Shown one piece after another: positions 552 through 58,614 of a stretch of DNA of 64,000 nucleotides; the first letter of the stretch is position 1, and every line of letters begins with the position of its first letter. The DNA is from Coniochaeta sp. PMI_546 (Eukaryota; Ascomycota; Sordariomycetes; Coniochaetales; Coniochaetaceae). A program made the translations under genes and the position numbers. The stretch lies in assembly GCA_021432605.1 (NCBI GenBank), contig MU271155.1, forward strand, positions 186,001-250,000, read 5' to 3'. A model generated the notes under the pieces. It saw only the letters and a list, made by a program, of their open reading frames with translations, had not been told where the DNA came from and did no database searches.

Positions 552-3277
552 AAGGACGATTTCTGGGCTTTGGAAAAACAAACCTAGCATCGAGTTGTCA
601 TTAGGTCACGATAAGTGAATGTGGATGAAATGAAACATGGAAAGACGAACGGCTATCTTTGCTCTTGGGGACCACTAGAAACATCTATTCTGCCCATGGC
701 ACGACACTCCGGGGCGAAAAGATGAGGAAGCGTTTATAGCGGTTTCGGAAGGACGGGGGGCGGGTAGAATTCTGCCATGCATGGTCGGCGTTTCATTGAC
801 CTGGCGGGCATCTGAGAGAGAGGGATGCTGGAAAGGGGAAGAAGGGGCACGGCGTTGCCCATGCTACCGGGTACGGGATGGGTCTAGCATCTTTCTTCGA
901 TTCGAGACATGGGGATACAACGTCTTTTTTTTGTTTGGGGGGTGTGCCCATCCTCTTGACCCTTGATGTCTAGGGATATTCACTTCTCGCAGTTGAATAG
1001 TGAGCGGCATTTTGATAGCTGGCGGAGAGAGCGTTTGCTGGGCTGGGATACGCTAGTGTATAGACTGAGAACGAATTGCTTAGTTACCAGGACGCGGACT
1101 TGACATCTGGCTGTGGCTGTGTACCTGTCTATTGGCAGGTAGGTAAGGAGCTCTACTATAAGTTGTGATAACAGGTGAATTCCGGACGACATCGAGTATC
1201 GCTGCTGAAGATTCTCGTTATGTACCAGCACTAGGTTCTAGACTACCAGTTCCGGCGTGGATTTTTGGAGAGTTCCTCCTGGCAGACAATCCTCTTGGGC
1301 TCCCGTTCACTCGGATGGTAAGAGCTGCCAGAGTGCATCCTGAAAATCGTCTGCCGTGGTTGTAAGGTATCTCATAAAATTCTGTAATGCCCAGGAATGG
1401 TGACCCGCTTCGCAGGAATCGTTCCCCTAAGGGTGCCTAATTCCGATATAGCGATGATCTGATAACCAGACCGACATCAAAGGTGACCATGATCCAGCAT
1501 AGTATAAACTCCAAACGGCAAGTTTGGCCGCTCCGAACCCTCTTCTTGCTTGATTCCGGAATCGTCGGACCTAGTATCGATCGCGATCTCACCGACACGT
1601 GGCGGAATGGTAATGAAGCAGGCAGTGAGTTTGACGAAGGCCATGCCCTGATGGGTAAGCCATTAGGATAGGAGGCTGCTTCAACAAGTCCTGAACACCT
1701 GGTAGCTTGGGCAAAGGAAGAGTGAGGCGCAGCTTAGACAGAATTTATAAGCCCGGACCGTAATGTAACTGACTGATCCCTGCCGTCGATGACCGGCGGC
1801 CGGCGCGGACGATTCGAGTTTGGAGAGTTGAGGGGCCACATAGTCAGCACTCTATTACCACCTCCGTCGGCACTCAAACTGCCCAGCGTCAAACAACAAT
1901 CAAGGAGGGAAACAGTGCTCATCATGACTTCAGCTATCGAGATCTTAGCAGTGCCTTTCTATCGATCTTGACACACCTTAACACGAAGCACCGTCAGTGA
2001 TCGGCACCGGATTTTAGATAGAAAATCTCCGGGACCAAATTCGAGGTGGGACGGCGCCGGGATACGGGGCCCTTGGCGGGCAGGTCCGATGGCTGCATAT
2101 CGGATTGTGGGGTCGGAAGGTCTTTCAGTGACAAGAGTGACCCTATCATAAGGCTCAAACATCGGGGTTCGGACCCCACCATCTCCACCTTCTCCACAAC
2201 TCTCGCCGGATGAGTCCTTCCTGCACTGCAAGCTCGAGAAGGTCGATCCAACGCATCTCATCACATACCCTCCACTGCCAGGTACACAGTACACCACCAA
2301 CACGAACACTGCTTGGCAGATGTCTTGTCGAAAGAGCTACATACGTCGACTGCACCTGGACCGCTTCTCTCATGTTGTGTATCACCACTCGGGGCTTGCT
2401 TTGCACGGAAGAGTCACCGGATTACTGTGGTATGTATGAGTCGAATATGCAAGAGCTGCATTTTGCAACTGCCTCACCCGGGTTTCGACACCTTGGCGTC
2501 GAGGATGTTACTGTGTAGAACGGCAATTGCGGGGCCGACAGCGACTTCAATTGACATGCATTTGACATGCCGTTTGACATTTTCTGCCGAACTTTTGCCA
2601 TTGCTCAAGATATCCCACGCTATTGCTCGCTTCTTTGGACCTGTTAGGCTGTTACCGGGGCACCTACGGCTGTCGGTTGGACTAAGGCATACGCTACGAC
2701 GCTGCTTGTCGCGAAGTGGGGAGCTAGCCATCTTGCCTCCTTACCGTGATCAGACCAGCAGTATGGGTTTTTTGGTGTAGACGGTATCCGTCCCGTAGTC
2801 CCATGCTACAGCAGACTCGCCAGTCTCTGCCGACTCGGCCGACTCTTCTCGGAATCGCGAACTAAAAATGTAGGGCGACAGTGGGTCTGGACAATGTTTT
2901 TGCTTTGAAATACTCTTGGACTGCTGCTGCATCGCGACTTCTTTTTTCTTGTTCAGCTGCCCCCCCTCCCTTCATTGTTTGTATTGCTGTTCTTGCTTGC
3001 CTCTCTTTTTTTTGGTGGCTCGACTTGTTGTTCATCACTAAGCATCTCGTCCGCCCCCACGGCATCTATTGCAGGTTCTATCAGTCATTCTCCTTCTCTT
3101 TTGTACGTATAAGTGATAGGCATACTGTATAAGTATACTTGATTCCGCCTCGCGCTTCCAGTGACCCCACGTCATTGACTCTGGATACACACTGCTCCCT
3201 CGCCATTCTACCATCTTACACCTGACGTGTGACAACCCCTATCCGCAAGGAGCCATTTGCGGCTCACACAGAACATC
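552..3277. other. Intergenic stretch, no gene recognised
   Basis: About 2.7 kb between the CK2 beta stop and the ABC transporter start. Only short overlapping open frames with no recognisable family are present. The last several hundred bases (from about 2880) are rich in pyrimidine tracts and are presumably the promoter and 5' leader of the transporter. I see no repeat or RNA gene here. Confidence 0.5.
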
Positions 3278-35759: not shown

Positions 35760-36862
35760 TTAGAGTATGGTACACGTCCCCATGGCCCCGTTTTGCAATA
35801 GAATCGTGAGTATTGGACCGGTTGCGCTGGCTACAATAGGCCCAATGATTTCCAAGGCTTCTACCTGTTGTTGGGCGATTTGTTGCTCAGCGGGCTGGAA
35901 ATTGACGGAAAACTTTGATTACGAGGAATGCGAGAACTCGATGCAAAAGGAGAGGTCTTACTCACAGTCATACGGCCCAACTTCCACTTCTGGCCCTCGA
36001 GCTTGCTGATCCTCTCCAGAAGCTCCTCTCTCTCCTGTTGGGTGGCTTCTCTTTGGCGTCTAAGCTCCTCCAACTCCCCGCGGAGTTGCCGAACTAATTC
36101 ATCCAAGTCCGAGTTCATCTGCCGGCCTGCAGAGGTTTGCATTACTTTGCCGCAATTCTTGGCCAATTCTTCTTGCATCAAGAGCTTGACGGGTGTGGCG
36201 AATGATAAGAAGGATCGAACGATTTGCTTCGCTGAGGCCTCGGTGTTTCGATGCTGTACAACCCTTGCTCCGGAGGACACCATATCCCCCCAGACGTCGT
36301 TCCTCGACTCTCTAGCCCATGTTCGATATTTTGCCACGTCGTCGTCCAGTTCCTCCCATTGCGTTGTCGCTATCACGACTCTCTCGTAGGCGTTGTCACC
36401 CAGGACTCGCTTGAAGAGCCGGGTGCGCTTCGCCTCGCTGCCGGTCAACCGAGCGTTGCTGATGGGTTGCAGGAATATGATTCCTGTTAGATATATCTGA
36501 TGCTTGTAGGTTTCTGCGAGGTAGTTCGCAATCAGCTGCAGGATGTCTGCGTCGGATTGTGAACTATCGTCGAAGCCTGGCGTGTCGAGTAGAGTAATCT
36601 GCCGTCCGTCGATGGTACATCGAACAGGTTCGACATCGGGGGTGCCTGATAGACATCAATGAACGGTTTCATCATGAATAATGTATTTTGTGCACTAACA
36701 GGCATCTAGGCCGTGGCCGATTGCCAGGCTTCGGTTGCCTGTTGCTTTAGAGATAAATGTTGTCTTTCCTGCACCGGTAACGCCGATGATACCGATCAAG
36801 ATCTCCGGCCGAGAAGGGATATTGAGGTGGTACTTAGAGAGATATGAACCGTAATTCGGCAT
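35760..36862 (-). CDS. AIG1/GIMAP-like GTPase with hydrophobic C terminus
   Basis: Three exons on the minus strand, 36862-36700, 36645-35966 and 35894-35760, give 325 aa. Introns of 54 nt (GTTAGT) and 71 nt (GTGAGT) keep phase. GTP-binding motifs: G1 GVTGAGKTTF (near residue 28), G3 TLLDTPGFDDSS, and IFLQPISNARLTGS as seen in fungal AIG1-like G domains. The usual G4 [NT]KxD is replaced by ATTQWEE. A coiled coil follows (about residues 210-275, LVRQLRGELEELRRQREATQ), then the last exon adds a glutamine-rich bit and a hydrophobic stretch (ALEIIGPIVASATGPILTIL). GIMAP-type proteins of plants and animals are linked to immunity and membrane scaffolds; function in fungi is unknown. It is divergent to a second such gene at 37831. 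Confidence 0.85.
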
Positions 36863-37830
36863 CGTAGGAGCAGAGATAATATGATGTTGTTTTTGCTTTG
36901 TTCAGCTAATCTTACGGGATGTCGAGTTTGAAGTGGCAATCAAGGTTGTAACAAGGACTAAGAAGAGCCCTATCCCTGAGTTATTGGCGACCCTCGAAGA
37001 CTCAAATAACACACAGCATTCTGCACAGGAATCTCGGTACGGACCGCACCTCTTTTGGGTGACTGATGGCGTTATGTGTAAAAGAACTTCCGATCTACCA
37101 GGCATCAGATGCTGAGTGAGTCGGTTGTTGCTTCGTGGCTGCCAGTCTCGAAAAGTCTACACTCCAATAGGGTCTAGTAACGGAAAGGGATATCAGATGT
37201 TCAGCGGCTATCTGTCCAAACACGCGTTATGGGTTACTGGAGAGTATTTGGGAGGGATAGTATGGTCTGCTTGCTATTGGCCGCCAAGATCTCAGCTTCT
37301 GCAGCCACAATGACCCATGGTATCGCAATCTCATGATTTCTCGAAACTGAACGAGACATCTCAATGCGGAACGACGGTCAAATTTATGTAGGACAGAGAC
37401 ATACTCAAGGCAACAATTGAAATGACGAGCACCCTCAGCTGACGTCGTTCTCGAGCCATTATCGGGCTGATTCTTGCGACAGCCACGTTGCATGTTTTCC
37501 CAGAGTGGACTGATACGCGAGAGACAAGGCTGCAGACTTGAACAGGAGACTTGCAGGAGCTGTTGCTCTTGCCGAGGAGGAAGTCAAAGACGCGACGTCT
37601 GACTTCAGAGGCAAACCGCTACAACTCCCTAGAACAGTAAACTGTGAAGTACGGCGTCCATAACTTGACAACACTAATTCATTTTCTCCCTCTCACCTTT
37701 TCTGGATCTATTTCTGCACTTCCAGCAGACGATACCATAGTCAACACAATGGCACACTCCACAAGCAGTGTGAGGAGAGAGGAGAAATTGTGAGGCGAGC
37801 CTGAACCATACAACACATCGTTCTGCACAT
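36863..37830. other. Divergent promoter region between two AIG1-like GTPase genes
   Basis: About 970 bp between two start codons that point away from each other; no gene recognised. A shared control region is possible. Confidence 0.45.
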
Positions 37831-38942
37831 ATGCTGAAGCTCAACAGGATTGACATAGACATGCCACCCACTCAAGCCGTCCGACCGCGACATGGGCTCT
37901 CCATTTTACTCCTTGGAGCAACAGGAGTAGGGAAGTCAACGTTTATTGCAACGACCACAGGTGCCAAGGTCGAGATAGGTCACGGCGTCACATCTTGTGA
38001 GTCTCTTAGTACTCCTCCTGCTCGTCATGCCCCTTACTTATCGCCCAAGGCACAACCGATTGTCAACTCATCGAGGTCGACTACCTCGGGAATCTCGTCA
38101 CCCTTATCGATACTCCCGGGTTCGACGACACCAGCCGCGACGACCTGGACACCCTCGGCACCATAGCAAGTTTCATGAACCCCCAGGACATACCGCCCAT
38201 TGCTGGCGTCGTATACTTCCAGCGAATCACTGACAGACGTGTCACCGGACTGGGCCGCATGAATCTGAGGCTCATGCAGGCTATTTGCGGCGCAGCGTTC
38301 TATCCCCACGTCATCCTCTGCACGACAACGTGGAATACTGTCACGAGCCAGAACGCCGCTGTCCAGGAGGAGTGTCTCCTTCGCGAGAAGCAGCTGATGG
38401 AGTCCCCTAACCACTGGGAAGGGCTGATCCGCCAGGGGGCCCGGTGCTGTCGATTCACGGGCGACCGCGAGTCCGGACTGGCGATCATCGATCACATACT
38501 CCAAAGACCAGCCGCTCCGAGATTGGCAATCGAGGTGGAGCTGAGACAGAGCAGACGTTTGGAGGAGACTGCGGCGGCGAGTATTATCTTGGAGGAGAGG
38601 CGTAAGCGCGAGGAGCGCCTGAGAGAGGAGATGCGGGCTGAGCGCGAAGAGGAAGAGGAGAGGCTTCGTCAGGAGCGCGAGAGCCTGGCTCGAGCATCTC
38701 GGGATGCTCGTGGTCTTGGAGAGCCGATCCGCTCCTCCAGCCACCGTGGCGACGATGCGCTAATTGTTGATCCACAACACGCGGAGCCTGAACGCGGCGA
38801 AGGCTCGTCTCATGTGGACCGGTCACACTCCCGGCCACGTACCCTGGTCAAGAAGAGCCCTGGCAAGACTAGGCAGATTTATGTGGTGGAAGTAAGACAG
38901 GTGCGACATGGGTCGCGTGGTTCGAATTGGCGGTTTTGGTAA
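37831..38942 (+). CDS. AIG1/GIMAP-like GTPase with coiled-coil C terminus
   Basis: Two exons, 37831-37996 and 38050-38942, over a 53-nt intron (GTGAGT ... CCAAG), give 352 aa. G1 is LLGATGVGKSTFI (near residue 28), G3 TLIDTPGFDDTSR, then the family strand GVVYFQRITDRRVTGLG. At the G4 position it has ILCTTTWN instead of [NT]KxD, as in its divergent neighbour. The middle (about 225-270) is a highly charged coiled coil (LEERRKREERLREEMRAERE). The C terminus is basic and ends in WRFW. The intron falls at the same point (GHG..., before CT) as intron 1 of the neighbour, so the two are old duplicates. A second in-frame ATG (MPPTQAV) ten codons in is an equally good start. Role unknown; membership of a recognition or death pathway is inference from context. 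Confidence 0.85.
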
Positions 38943-39248: not shown

Positions 39249-41957
39249 CTAGACGATGAGTATCTCTGTCCACTGCACAGCACCCTCGTGAGCCTCTCCA
39301 TCCCGGACACAATATGCGTGAATATCACAGTTGTCCTGCTTCTGCATGTAGCCCAGCAAAACGCAGTCTCCTACCAGCCTATACACCCCGGCCTTCCCAG
39401 TACGCCTCAGCACGTAACACATCTTGCCTCCTTCAAGTAGGAATATCTCGTCGCCCCGCTGGGCAGTGTGTGGACCCAAAACCGGTCGTCGCCCCTCGGC
39501 GATACAGAACGTCCTGTTTCGAAGCTTGGACAGCACCTGCTTCGTCTCCTTGTTATGACGGTTCCACCTGTCACGAAAACTCTCCAGATTTGGGCTTTTC
39601 CCCCGCGTCCAGTCAATGGGGCTATATCCTAGACGAGACCCTGTCTCAACAAAACTGATGTATTCCAACATCTGATCAAATGAGGTGATGTGATCGGGTG
39701 GGTCCCATTGCAGGAGAGTCTTAAGCCCGCTGTCGAAGCTGTCATGAAACTTCATATAAATGGTCTCCAAGCGGCAGAGCTGTGCTGCGCGTACTCTCAG
39801 CCCTCGTGGGGATCTCCCTCCGGGAGATGGCGTGAAGCGGGTGTGACTTTCCCCCGTAAAATGGTCAGAAAAACGGAACAGGTTATTATGAGAAGGCTGT
39901 GTCAGGTCCGAGGCCCATGACGGCAGTATTCTCGTTATTCGGCGACCGAGCGGACTTGTGTTCATGTTCAGCATTCCGTCGGAGTCCCCATCGAAGTCTA
40001 CCGGTGCGAAGTCTATCCGACCGGGGCGTTGGCCCCCGGCACAACAGCCATGGAAGCTATATGGCTGATTTCGGGAGGTAACGGTCCAGTCTGGAACCCA
40101 GGATGGCAGGCCATTTATCCTGCTGTCTCCGTATCTTTCCGAAAGGACACTCGGCCCCATATGCTCTAGCAGATACTCTGCTACGTCCGTGAAAAGATCG
40201 GTAAGGTTGCGTGTATAGTCGATGGTCAGACGCTTGTCATGTGGACGTTCCTGGAACAATTCGAGCAGTGCATATATCTTGTCCTTGGCGTCTGTGGACG
40301 CGCAGTCGCGTGCGTTGCGCAGCTCGCGGAAGAGTCCCTCGGGTGTCATGGTGTCAATCAAGCGTGACTCGCCAAAGGACATGACGTAGGGTAGGGGTCG
40401 AAGCTTTTCGATGTGCCCGATCGACGACGAATGTGCCTTATGAAATGTCTCCCGCCACGGCGTGATCCGCGAACCGCAAATGACGCGAGCGGACCTCGAG
40501 CAGGCGACCTCCTGCAGCACCCATACTCTGTGGAACCATGGACGGTGGAGAAGATTCTTCAGCGCCGTGACCTCGTCATGGTCCAAGTTATCCGTTGTCC
40601 ATGGCCGACGGCCACCGGCGTCATCCTCAAGGATTCCTATCGCTTTGTCGCTGTCGACGGAACTGTCTCCCAAGTAGATGAGCACATGCGAAGCATTACT
40701 ATAAATGCGATGCATGATTCGTACTTGTGCACTACGCTCCTCTATGTTGGCTTGGTTTATGCATATAGCATCGACCCATATGAGCCTCTCTGAATCGGGA
40801 TATCGAAGCTGTCGCAGGGCTCGGGCGCAATTAGACGTGATACCGAGGCTTGAGGTCGTGCTGGAATGCTGATTGTGGAGATATATCGTTTCTGTGGCTT
40901 TGGGATCTCCCCATGCATAGGACAATGCTTCGTATAGCGGAATCTGAGGCATGTTATGGCATTTGGCACAGTCGGATAGTTGATTCTCCGATTGGGATTC
41001 ATGATTGCAGGCTGGCAGCACCGCATGTTCGACTGTTCCCGTGATGAAGTCGCCGCAAGACTCTGGATACAGCCGCAGCAGCCGGATCTCGTCATCGCGC
41101 TGGAGTTGCGCGTACTGGAAATCACCCGCGCACCTAGCTGTAGTATTATGAGTGGCTAGACCCGCTGGCTTCTTCGATAAAGCTTTCGACGATAGTGGCA
41201 CCGTCGTTGGAATCGGCGTGTCGGCTGCGTTTACCCCGTCCGCTGGACGCTCTTGGTTCGCGCCGCTGCGAGTACGGAGACTCTCTTTTGTCAAGAGAGG
41301 CCGCGACTCCCCATCGGCTTCATGGCCTACCTTGGGCTTCGCGTACAGCCTAGTCCAATCCACGGCGGTCTTGATTGCAAGAGCTTCGTCATCCTTCCAC
41401 TTCTTACCGATATCAACAGTCAACGGATCGTCGGGATTGGGAGCCCCAAGAAGTGCCTGGATGCTAAGCAAAACTGTACGGACCCGCAATGCCGGAGACC
41501 AATTTCCTTTAAAAACCGTCAGCGAAGAGACGCCACGTGAATAGTAGGCGTGAAGATGAGGGACCTTCTAAGACGTCGAGGCAGACCCGTCCTTTTTCAT
41601 CAATATTGGGATGGTATATCTTCGTCAAGAACAGGACCTTGGGAGCTACCATGGGGTAGTCTTCCGGAAGGAAAAGCTGAAGCTTAAAGATGCCACCTTG
41701 CTTTACATCAGTCTCTCGACCTATGACTGACCAGCTCGAGTTGACATACCAGCATATGGGGTCGTGGACGGGCCGGCAATCTCGGCGTCCCATAGCCTCA
41801 TATTGTCTGGGCGATGCACAGCGCTGATACCGGGAATACTGCAAGGGGTAAAAGTGTTAGAATAGGTTGGTATAACCGCGGCTAAGGAAAGAACCATGTC
41901 GAACTTTTCACGCGACCAGCGGTCGATTTCTTTGAGCAGCAGCCTCGGAATCGCCAT
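39249..41957 (-). CDS. UBC13-like ubiquitin-conjugating (E2) domain fused to HET domain
   Basis: Four exons on the minus strand, 41957-41905, 41838-41750, 41696-41565 and 41506-39249, give 843 aa. Residues 1-147 form a complete E2 fold of UBC13 (UBE2N) type: [45 protein letters not shown] (HPN), the catalytic Cys near 86 in [15 protein letters not shown], and [20 protein letters not shown] up to WTRLYA. The same exon then reads through a linker of about 70 residues with no Met into a HET domain: [52 protein letters not shown]. The linker and the first HET strand have no start codon of their own, so a separate HET gene is unlikely. Introns 1 and 3 have weak donors (GTTCGA, GTCCCT), chosen because they restore exact UBC13 alignment. 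HET domains trigger cell death upon non-self recognition. Confidence 0.85.
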
Positions 41958-45931: not shown

Positions 45932-47406
45932 ATGCCAGTCACCACCTTTGACGTGAAGGAGAAGTACCGTTACCTCAACGGCTTCGACAACCACCACCAG
46001 TAACTCCCCTCCTTCCCGTATCATAGCACCGACACCGGCGTATGCTAATGCCCCACAGATCAGAAGCCGTTCCGGGTGCACTTCCCATCGGCCACAACTC
46101 GCCCCAGAAACCACCACACGGCCTCTACGCCGAGAAACTGTCCGGGACAGCCTTCACAGCGCCCCGGCACGAGAACAAGCAGACCTGGTTCTACCGCATC
46201 CTGCCCTCCTGCTGCCACCCGGCCTTCACCCCCGTCACCCTACCCAACACAGAGGACATCGCCCCGGACCAGTCCAAGCTGCACTTCATCCCGAACCAGC
46301 TCCGCTGGGACCCCTTCGCCCACGACCCGGACACCGACTTCGTCTCCGGCCTGCGCCTCCTCGCAGGGGCAGGCGACCCGACCCTCAAGCACGGCCTCGG
46401 CATGTACATCTACGCCGCCGGCAAGTCCATGCCCGCCACCTCGGCCTTCTACTCCGCCGACGGCGACCTCCTCATCGTCCCGCAGGAGGGCGCCCTCGAC
46501 ATCCGCACCGAGTTCGGCTGGCTCCTCGTCCGACCGATGGAGATCGCCGTCATCCCCAGGGGCGTCAAGTACCAGGTCCACCTACCCTCTGGCCCGGCCC
46601 GCGGCTACGCCCTCGAGCTCTACCAGGGCCACTTCCAGCTCCCCGAGCTCGGCCCCATCGGCTCCAACGGCCTGGCCAACGCCAGAGACTTCCAGGTTCC
46701 CCTGGCCTGCTTCGACGAGGACCACGGCACCACCGCCGACGACGGAACCACCAAATACACCATCACCGCCAAGTTCAACAACTCCTTCTTCCAGACCAGC
46801 CAGTCCCACACCCCCTTCAACGTCGTCGCCTGGCACGGCAACTACTACCCCTTCAAATACGACCTGGGCCGCTTCAACACCATCGGCACCGTGTCCTTCG
46901 ACCACCCGGACCCAAGCATCTTCACCGTCCTGTCCGCCCCCTCCGACCACCCGGGCACCAGCATCGCCGACCTGGTCATCTTCCCCCCTCGCTGGCTGGT
47001 CGGGGAGGACACCTTCCGCCCGCCCTGGTACCACCGCAACACCATGTCCGAGTTCATGGGGCTGATAGGGGGCGAGTACGATGCCAAGAAGGGCGGGAAG
47101 GGGGGGTTTGTGCCTGGCGGGGCGAGCCTGCATAATGTTATGAGTGGGCATGGGCCGGATGCGGATAGTTATGAGGGGGCGAGGGGGAGGGAGCTCCGGC
47201 CCGAGAAGGTTGGGGAGGGAAGCTGTGCGTTTATGTTTGAGAGTTGTCTTATGATGGGGGTTACGGAGTGGGGGCTGAGGAAGTGCGATCGCGTGCAGGA
47301 GGAGTATGCTGAGCATAGCTGGGGGAGGGTCAGGGTTCATTGGAGGAGGCCGGAGGGGAGTGGGGAGGGGGATGGACATCTTTTGGAGGGGGAGAAGACA
47401 GGTTGA
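45932..47406 (+). CDS. hmgA: Homogentisate 1,2-dioxygenase
   Basis: Opens the ring of homogentisate to maleylacetoacetate using O2 and non-heme Fe(II), in the tyrosine/phenylalanine breakdown pathway (cytosol). Two exons, 45932-45999 and 46059-47406, over a 59-nt intron (branch GCTAAT, CCACAG), give 471 aa, close to the family's 440-475. The start [20 protein letters not shown] reproduces the conserved YLNGF..H entry. Other marks: [40 protein letters not shown], and the iron ligands in [14 protein letters not shown] (His 348, Glu 354) and MSGHGPD (His 387). Codon use turns from GC-rich to G-rich near the end but the frame stays intact. The usual partners fumarylacetoacetate hydrolase and maleylacetoacetate isomerase are not in this window. 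Confidence 0.97.
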
Positions 47407-56407: not shown

Positions 56408-58614
56408 TTACAGTAAGAGCACATCGCGAAACACAGCCACATTCTCCCACTGTGCCTGGTAGGCCTCAGGTAGCAGCGTATTGAAGGAGTACAGTCCCGC
56501 CCGCGTGAATGCACCGCTGTCTGTGACCCGGAGGACGAGACCGTTTCTAGTCCGCCCCTTCCTCGACAGCTCGAAGAGCCAGTACTCGTGCTGGGTATGC
56601 GAACCATCGTTCTCTATCATCCCTGCGTATAGCAGTTCGTCATTCTCATCTGGGTAGATGTATCCCATGCCACGACTGTTCGGCTCCTCGGTCCCATAAT
56701 CTCGCGTCCGAGAAGGAAAGAAGCGCGCTAGATCTTCCCACGCGAAAGGGCCGAGGGCACTTGTCTCGAGGCGGAGGTAGACCTTGACAGTGTCGCTGAA
56801 TTGGTCGGCCGGTGCAGCGCCGAACGTCATGTAGCTCGCCCTGGCAGTCAGGGTCGGGTTTTGGTCCAGGTAGGTCTGGGGGTAGGCCACCGGCGCGGCC
56901 CGTTGACAGATGCCCACGACCATGTGTAGCTCTTCAAGCCTGGCCGCCGGAAGTGGTCCGGCAGTCTGATCCGAGGCGGCCGGTAGCTGTACCACATCAG
57001 GTCTCGGACGAGATCGTCTTGCCACATGCCATGGACGTACTGGCTTTGCAGTGCAGCGGCGAAGCGCCGTGCTGTCGCCGAGAGGGCGACCAGCTTGTCT
57101 GGGAGAGATGTCAGTCGTCCTTGAGAGTAGCCATGGACGACCTCTCTCCACCAGCGATGCAGCGTTGGCTTGCTGTGCCTGTTAGGGTTAGCCTGACTGC
57201 CAGTCACGGCGTCAGGAACGCCATGAAGGAAGCTCCGGATATCCAGCGTTGCTGAGCCAAAATGCACATCCTCCAGGTCAAAGTCACAGTGGGAGGCTGT
57301 GAGGCACTGCCAAGAAAGTTTCCTATGTCCAAAAGTCAACATCCTCGGTGACAGCATCCGCTCCTGGTGCGTCCATGCCCTCTCATAGATCATCTCTTTG
57401 TGGTTGTCGTTCAAAGTATCATGGCCTGTGGGCACGAGATATATCTTGCCTGTTGTGCCGTCCGGGCTGAGGTAAGGAAGCTCTTCACTCTTCTGCTCGT
57501 AGCGCTCTCCTACGTCCCATCGCGTGGTCAGGAACCCTTCGTCGCAGTCTCGAGCGCCGGCAGCTGAGATAGTCACCGTTGCGTTGGTGTAGATGTCTCC
57601 CATCCTTGAGATTTCAGCCGCTTTGTCGGTGTCTGAGTCTTGTATGATGCAAAGAGCGTCGACCCACAAATACGGGATGCCGAGCCTCCTCGTGGCGAGG
57701 ACGGCATCTAGGACCGTCTTGTGTAGTGTAGACAGAGGTATCCCCGCAGTGTTCGCAGGGAGTGTGTCGCTGGTGGTCAGACAGGTCTGTTGCTTGCCCC
57801 AGCAGTAGCTCAGAGCAACGTAACGCGTATCTGTCTCCTCTCTATCAGTGACGCGGAGCCGGACCATGTCGCGATCTAACGGAGGCAACACTTCAAGGAC
57901 GCGGGTCGGTAGTGATCTGCCGCTGCCCACTCGATGACAGTTTGAATGGTTGTTGTGGCAATCATCTACCCATGACCGAGCAAGATCAAAGTTGCTGTCT
58001 GAACTCAAATCGGGGTCCGCGAACCGCTGCTTGAGGAACTTCACTGAGGGTGTGTCTGCAGCAAAGAGTCAGCTGCAGACCTTGCAAGACTTCAAAGATC
58101 CTGTAAAACAGACCCGGAACTGCATATATCTCGGCATATTTTGTCTTGGCTATCTTGTGATCCGAGCCAGGGATCTCGAAGATGACCACTTGGTGCAGGA
58201 ACCCAGACCGCGGATCGTCCTTGTGCCAGATCTTCATCTTGAAGTAGGATGGCTGCATAGCCTGTGAATCCTGCAGAATCAGGACCAAAAATGCACGTGT
58301 TACAGATGGTGTGCACTGGATCATACCGCGGACATCTCCATCCCAGCCTTTGCCGTGCTGCTCAGCAGGAACTTGGCAAGCGGACAACCAGTTGTTGACC
58401 ATGTCTGCAGATCCTCGGTAGTGGTGTCGCCTTCGAGCGTTATTCCTCTCTGCAGTCCATGCAAGTTGTCCGCAATAGAGAACAGTGAGCATAATCCGTT
58501 GCAGGTGCAGGCTTGTATACTGTCAAGCGGTGTCGAGGCCGCAAGCCGGACTGGCTGGCATTGGGCAGGCGGCACAGAGACATCCGAACCTGGCCCACCT
58601 ATGATCCACGACAT
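56408..58614 (-). CDS. HET-domain (heterokaryon incompatibility) protein, frame broken once
   Basis: Minus strand. Exons proposed: 58614-58327, 58270-58114, 58055 onward. Exon 1 (MSWIIGGPG) carries the N-terminal GCPLAKFLL element that often precedes HET domains; exon 2 continues KIWHKDD. Exon 3 has SWVDDCHNNHSNCHRV, RYVALSYCWG, YLWVDALCIIQDS, IYTNATVTISAAGARDCDEG and YERAWTHQERMLSPRML: a full HET domain in the usual order. After YTWSWASVNG the C-terminal part (YPQTYLDQNP ... ENVAVFRDVLLL) continues in another frame, so there is about one break near 56.89 kb, either an assembly indel or a real lesion. HET domains cause compartment death when incompatible cells fuse. The donor of intron 2 (GTCTGT) is weak. 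Confidence 0.82.

Follow-up and report, generated by a model that had tools for sequence, protein, structure and literature searches.

A UBC13-type E2 joined in frame to a HET cell-death domain in Coniochaeta: predicted gene structure, relatives and possible function

The fusion gene and its surroundings

On the minus strand of the window (the whole 64,000-nucleotide stretch of Coniochaeta sp. PMI_546 DNA analysed here) lies a gene of four exons, 41957-39249, that reads in a single frame into an 843-residue product and a stop codon (Table 1). The product begins as a ubiquitin-conjugating enzyme (E2) of the UBC13 type and continues into a HET cell-death domain, Pfam placing UQ_con at residues 7-139 (2.1e-43) and HET at residues 283-424 (8.1e-33, with 114.3 bits against a curated cut-off of 22.5). 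This in-frame joining had been proposed in an earlier note made from the DNA letters, and the exon table upholds it together with the coordinates, product length and residues given there; the same note suggested an InterPro scan of the product, and the Pfam scan indeed found both domains. No Pfam-A match was obtained for residues 425-843 in the copy scanned, and PF26639 is precomputed for the relatives P0041, P0080, P0086, P0088, P0090, P0091 and P0095.

Table 1. Parts of the E2-HET gene, in window coordinates
Feature	Position	Strand	Details
Exon 1	41905..41957	-	E2 start, Met1; intron follows at codon 17.67 (phase 2), matching own UBC13
Intron 1 (66 nt)	41839..41904	-	GTTCGA...TTGCAG, branch-like CTAAC; unusual-looking donor
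Exon 2 of E2	41750..41838	-	
Intron 2 (53 nt)	41697..41749	-	GTATGT...CAAG; position and phase as in own UBC13
Exon 3, catalytic	41565..41696	-	HPN 41613-41605; catalytic Cys86 (human C87) 41583-41581
Intron 3 (58 nt)	41507..41564	-	GTCCCT...TAAAG, branch-like CTGAC; unusual-looking donor
Exon 4	39249..41506	-	E2 remainder, linker, HET domain, C-terminal part, stop
E2 C-terminal part	41331..41506	-	Split codon 92 to residue 150
Linker	41139..41330	-	Residues 151-214; open frame maintained
HET N-terminal conserved segment	40935..41138	-	Residues 215-282
Pfam HET core	40509..40934	-	Residues 283-424
C-terminal part	39252..40508	-	Residues 425-843

Splicing of the four exons is predicted. The coordinates of the HPN motif and of Cys86 were derived from the exon table and verified against the window sequence, and the intron 3 junction is the sole option giving a gapless E2 among the in-frame junctions listed (introns of 40-300 nt). 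Two of the three donors (GTTCGA and GTCCCT) look unusual. Together with Met277, a possible start just ahead of the Pfam HET core, they lend some weight to the alternative of a separate HET gene with a decaying E2 copy upstream of it, the two sharing a frame by chance or through an annotation-like merger. In-frame Met codons occur only at residues 1, 31, 63 and 277, so that the linker and the first HET strand hold none, just as had been read from the letters, and the first Met past the E2 is residue 277; a start there would lose the conserved segment 215-276, which is common to relatives, and this speaks against separate genes.

Several other genes were observed in the window. A frame of the AIG1-type GTPase family (35861-36655, minus, Pfam 1.5e-8) lies about 2.6 kb from the fusion gene; in other organisms GTPases of this type have links to immunity. 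At 37774-38942 (plus), frames that open like a P-loop GTPase (LLLGATGVGKST) and have an E/R-rich tail, for which Pfam gave matches below cut-off only, end about 0.3 kb before the 3' end of the fusion gene. A second HET domain gene is found at 56848-58068 (minus, Pfam 2.4e-31), and a homogentisate 1,2-dioxygenase at 46027-47406 (plus) has both of its Pfam parts in a single frame.

Origin of the E2 part and relatives of the fusion

A search of the genome (33.5 Mb, 24 contigs) located its own UBC13 on contig C5. The fused E2 aligns with it over 150 residues with no gap, 94 of them identical, and all three introns share position and phase between the two genes (codons 17.67, 47.33 and 91.33). The claim of a complete E2 with HPN and Cys in place and a length matching UBC13 is thus sustained, and the proposed comparison with the housekeeping gene points to a UBC13 origin. 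Own UBC13 in turn shares 128-136 of 146 residues with three other ascomycete UBC13s, and of 33 distinct solved sequences found at E<=1e-40, 28 bear the name UBE2N or E2 13, the remaining five also being ubiquitin-conjugating or carrier proteins. Across 147 codons, the fused E2 departs from own UBC13 at 43 first, 33 second and 91 third positions, a predominance of third positions that points to long purifying selection and argues against a decaying copy; dS between the two is saturated (NG86).

In an E2 tree the window and P0041, the only two E2-HETs with enough E2 for this purpose, group with 13 UBC13 rows (support 95/85). Repeat trees gave this grouping 94/96 with P0041 cleaned and 96/97 with the window alone; bootstrapping had not converged for the first of these repeats. 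The grouping was weak (50/88) in an initial tree of 36 rows, two of which were own E2s of very great length, one of these falling among the UBC13s. Both were left out of the 95/85 tree. In the initial and the 95/85 tree the P0041 row carried a stretch of 34 residues without E2 likeness in the frame given, which was removed in the repeat. Judged from the sequences compared, the fused E2 is a copy of the UBC13 gene, three UBC13 introns included.

Searching with the E2 part among proteins of 464-1475 aa returned 89 matches from 1037 candidates. By precomputed Pfam, five of these also hold HET (P0041, P0080, P0082, P0086, P0088) and seven HeLo (P0058, P0074, P0076, P0078, P0079, P0081, P0085); the remaining 77 have other partners or none, and many of them look like merged gene models. 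Two of the HET-bearing proteins come from Schizothecium vesticola (P0041) and Podospora conica (P0080). With the HET part, for which 8000 candidates were scored, at least 13 relatives were found at E<=1e-60, and in ten of the 13 among the matches listed an E2 tail runs in the same frame as HET, so that the UBC-HET architecture, whose search in other fungi had been recommended, does recur there. The other three comprise P0093 and P0096, which have no E2 and look N-terminally cut short, and P0097, which has its own start, no E2 and a HET core 50% identical to that of the window.

Identity to the window in the ten fused relatives is 69-79% for the E2 tail (residues 99-147) and 61-73% for the HET core, lower than for the tail in all ten, and 8-33% for the linker (residues 151-214) in the nine of ten in which it aligns, in one case over just 10 residues. 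The linker has thus drifted and the E2 tail and HET have been conserved, meaning that the frame was maintained across an otherwise drifting stretch. Given the shared frame in 10 of 13 relatives, the identity of the E2 tail and the shared intron positions, the fusion is, as far as sequence can tell, conserved in a family of fungal proteins rather than a gene-model merger; relatives, frame and intron positions likewise led to rejection of a merger of two adjacent genes. In the face of these ten relatives, a separate HET gene preceded by a decaying E2 copy is very improbable. Recent duplication or misassembly was rejected as well: elsewhere in the genome, the sequence most similar to the HET part is 36% identical over query residues 59-354, with short pieces of other matches reaching 47%. 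Among the matches listed (at least 87 HET and at least 33 E2, compared by eye), the two kinds lie within 5 kb of each other only at the fusion locus.

Eight of the ten fused relatives start inside exon 4, and the front of the E2 is therefore informed by P0041 and P0080 only. P0041 covers the catalytic exon. The annotated P0080 protein is without exactly this exon 3, and also without part of the linker; exon 3 is phase-symmetric in the window (132 nt), so that skipping it preserves the frame, and its absence may stem from a faulty gene model or reflect genuine loss or alternative splicing. In P0041 the annotated start is not E2-like, and residues 4-16 fit a +1 reading of an E2 exon-2 consensus. 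An 8-residue pattern, picked after the peptide was seen, occurs at this +1 offset in one of 73,339 peptide windows from 105 proteins and at the other offset in one window, in P0082. Exon 2 is thus probably really present in S. vesticola, as far as the protein can indicate. A structure model of P0041 was poor (mean pLDDT 49.4, 13 sequences).

A tree of HET domains placed the 11 fused rows in one group (100/99) with P0093, P0096 and P0097. The E2-less P0097 falls at or inside the E2-HET group, a position that fits both an outgroup and a loss of the E2. Of 12 own loci chosen for this tree, L003 and L040 were left out since the motif-based cut did not work on them; among the ten rows kept, four are two identical pairs.

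A HeLo-E2 gene in the same genome

The same genome holds a second fusion, a one-exon minus-strand gene on contig C1 (C1:4065678-4067249, corresponding to L046:1679-3250 with the open reading frame at 1682-3250, and also present in L012) that encodes 511 aa from its ATG, with Pfam matches to HeLo (5.1e-35) and UQ_con (1.6e-34). HeLo has seven matches in the genome, this gene included. The fusion protein of the window has no Pfam match to HeLo, which places it outside this HeLo-E2 family. Eight relatives were found by the E2 of this gene (E<=1e-10), seven with HeLo and the eighth, P0103, looking cut short in front; they include proteins of Cylindrodendrum hubeiense, Fusarium sarcochroum and F. 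austroafricanum. UBE2D is closest to this E2 by sequence among the best 60 of 226 matches. The model of the HeLo-E2 P0100, fair in its E2 part and weak in its HeLo part (mean 58.4), agrees with a UBE2D-like E2 in fold, the best 50 of 578 Foldseek rows being E2s, mostly UBE2D/UBE2E. About 7 kb from the HeLo-E2 gene lies a HET gene (C1:4056139-4058754, L045:1640-4255, plus) with some 370 residues free of Pfam matches before its HET domain.

Sixteen HeLo-E2 rows (15 with HeLo) form a single group in the E2 tree, with support of 96/96. HPN is present in all 16 and the catalytic Cys in 14, being replaced by Tyr in P0098 and by Phe in P0105, pseudo-E2s in which HPN is retained; E2 activity thus seems dispensable in some members. 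A single origin of E2-HET and HeLo-E2 was rejected (AU p 0.0066), as it was in repeats with the wrong-frame front of P0041 removed (0.029) and without P0041 (0.0124), from which it follows that HET and HeLo death-domain families recruited E2s separately.

Catalytic residues, partner surfaces and possible function

Residues are numbered here as in human UBC13, with 13 UBC13 rows as reference, most of them from database proteins with extra sequence, so that columns past about 142 are not pure UBC13. E55, F57, M64, R70, C87, K92, the SPA motif and Q100 are present in all 13 rows; E55, F57 and R70 form the Mms2 pocket, M64 binds RING E3s and Q100 is the target of OspI (PMC5520843, in part). UBC13/UBE2N builds K63 chains with a UEV partner, and the fused E2 resembles it in introns, HPN and Cys. 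It differs in being joined to HET, in matching own UBC13 at 94 of 150 residues and in the changes R7L, E55Q, R70L, K92E and Q100R, with H77, P78, N79, C87, D89, F57, M64 and S96-P97-A98 kept. In P0041, HPN, C87, D89, F57 and R70 are kept and the changes are E55K, M64V, SPA to SSV, K92A and Q100H; in P0080, SPA is changed. The catalytic Cys is retained in both E2-HETs that show it (window and P0041). Position 100 reads R, Q, T, H, H and H in six E2-HETs, Gln100 being replaced in five, and position 102 is changed in three of the six. Among 11 E2-HETs, G126 is found in all, against Ala in the UBC13 rows, and the active-site loop NPDDPL is mostly retained. In terms of these alignments, the E2 fold and catalytic core last and the partner surfaces change.

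The Mms2/UEV pocket of the window reads Q, F and L at positions 55, 57 and 70, and R70L/C in human UBC13 was judged likely to affect Mms2 binding in a review (PMC5325457, in part). Since two of the three pocket residues are altered, K63-chain building by the fused E2 is doubtful, and the domain would be described as UBC13-derived rather than classed as a working UBC13. Of the K63-chain role that the earlier note had brought up, the UBC13 origin stands and the chain building itself is weakened by E55Q and R70L. The retention of the RING-binding M64 and SPA in the window might suggest that the E2 is a mere scaffold or localisation tag, taking the HET protein, for instance, to sites of RING E3s; both are altered in P0041, and SPA also in P0080, making this a very improbable account.

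The best reading, whose chances of being right come close to balanced, is that the fused E2 serves as an internal sensor or switch that controls cell death. The E2 fold would act as the sensor or switch of a HET-type death protein and would report the state of the ubiquitin system, or interference with it. The trigger would be a foreign or incompatible partner that binds or modifies the E2, or else lost engagement with E1 or E3, and the ensuing change in the E2 would release the HET domain and bring about cell death, a gating that may be likened to that of the MLKL pseudokinase over its four-helix bundle, or to the integrated domains of plant immune receptors. In its favour, the window and P0041 retain the fold with altered partner surfaces, the E2 tail is conserved more closely than the HET core in all ten fused relatives, two HeLo-E2s have lost the catalytic Cys, and the separate fusion of HeLo with a UBE2D-like E2 fits the same sensor logic. 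Overexpressed HET domains suffice for killing, and HeLo is a domain that targets the plasma membrane (PMC12881547, in part); how HET domains bring about death is not understood, though they are remotely linked to TIR domains (PMC10890737, PMC10197012, both in part). Against the sensor reading stand the loss of Gln100, a known effector target, in five of six E2-HETs and the confinement of Cys loss to the HeLo family. Bait for Gln100 deamidation of the OspI type is accordingly not favoured.

Preservation of HPN and Cys in the window, P0041 and 14 of 16 HeLo-E2 rows also tells against a sensor and suits an active enzyme, which would ubiquitinate the HET protein or its partners, either keeping the death protein in check through turnover or switching it on through chain building. 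This rival is serious, since HPN, Cys and D89 are intact in both E2-HETs in which they can be read and since genes upregulated during incompatibility in both P. anserina and N. crassa show an enrichment of ubiquitin-degradation domains (PMC3689799, in part); M64 and the SPA motif in the window, the largely intact NPDDPL loop in 11 sequences and the K63 chains received by the HeLo domain of animal MLKL (PMC8816944, in part) also agree with it. Nevertheless, an active enzyme is on the unlikely side, considering the altered E55 and R70 of the window, the altered M64 and SPA of P0041 and the missing Cys in two of 16 HeLo-E2 rows. It is also conceivable that the gene is an allorecognition (het) locus, with the E2 or the C-terminal part as a polymorphic specificity domain read by another gene. 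HET proteins do serve many het systems (PMC10890737, in part), and E2 positions 100 and 102 differ between relatives. This variation is between relatives and not alleles, however, and incompatibility genes make up only 4 of 132 HET genes in P. anserina (PMC10890737, in part), so that such a locus is improbable. Extending the sensor reading to both families, it is tentatively proposed, as something that may well prove wrong, that fungal death effectors have taken up E2s at least twice independently (UBC13 with HET, a UBE2D-like E2 with HeLo) as a sensor-switch that would watch the ubiquitin system and kill the cell upon tampering, some of these E2s being pseudo-enzymes.

In integrated-decoy plant NLRs, a copy of a host protein is built into a death-triggering protein. 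The fusion is alike in that Pfam and the alignment with own UBC13 reveal a duplicated host protein joined to a death-type effector, and unlike in that no NLR scaffold was found. BRUCE/BIRC6 is an IAP with a UBC domain, an anti-apoptotic BIR protein whose E2 is of another kind; it shares with the fusion the pairing of a cell-death regulator with an E2 domain and differs in not being a HET protein. More generally, IAPs with a UBC domain are cell-death regulators holding an E2 domain (PMC11596484, in part). The HET core of the fusion, well above the Pfam cut-off, aligns it with the HET death proteins HET-E/D/R, HET-6, TOL and BH of het-B, among which HET-E/D/R carry NACHT-WD40 and BH a C-terminal lectin fold (PMC12881547, PMC10890737, both in part), whereas the fusion has an E2 before HET. 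HeLo-E2s resemble executioners of the MLKL type in pairing a death domain with an enzyme-derived one, a pseudokinase in MLKL (PMC12881547, in part); they have an E2 or dead E2 in its place, and the window protein is HET rather than HeLo. W1I7I9 is also a HET protein with a ubiquitin-pathway-type domain, in this case of the MPN/JAMM deubiquitinase type and not an E2 (PMC5472282, in part). PADLOC, run on five proteins, returned just weak E2 or E1-E2 matches, in two of them.

HET-domain function beyond incompatibility was called a significant gap in a 2024 study (PMC10890737, in part), and the targets recognised by fungal NLRs an open question in a 2025 review (PMC12881547, in part). An enzyme built into two kinds of death effector singles out the ubiquitin-conjugation machinery as a concrete candidate and opens the question to experiment; if true, it would mean a ubiquitin-linked immune branch in fungi, comparable to the use of UBC13 in animals and plants. 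No description of an E2-HET or HeLo-E2 fusion came up in the open-licence papers searched, either in titles and openings of abstracts or in passages of PMC9815663, PMC3689799, PMC1325252, PMC5472282, PMC10890737, PMC12881547, PMC10197012 and PMC11596484, and 'ubiquitin' has zero occurrences in the main texts of PMC12881547, PMC10197012 and PMC10890737. To our knowledge, the uptake of E2s by two death-domain families is undescribed; each half of the fusion is a member of a known family. The earlier note's doubt that the fusion had been described holds for the literature searched, although the public database entries P0041, P0080 and P0082 bear both Pfam labels.
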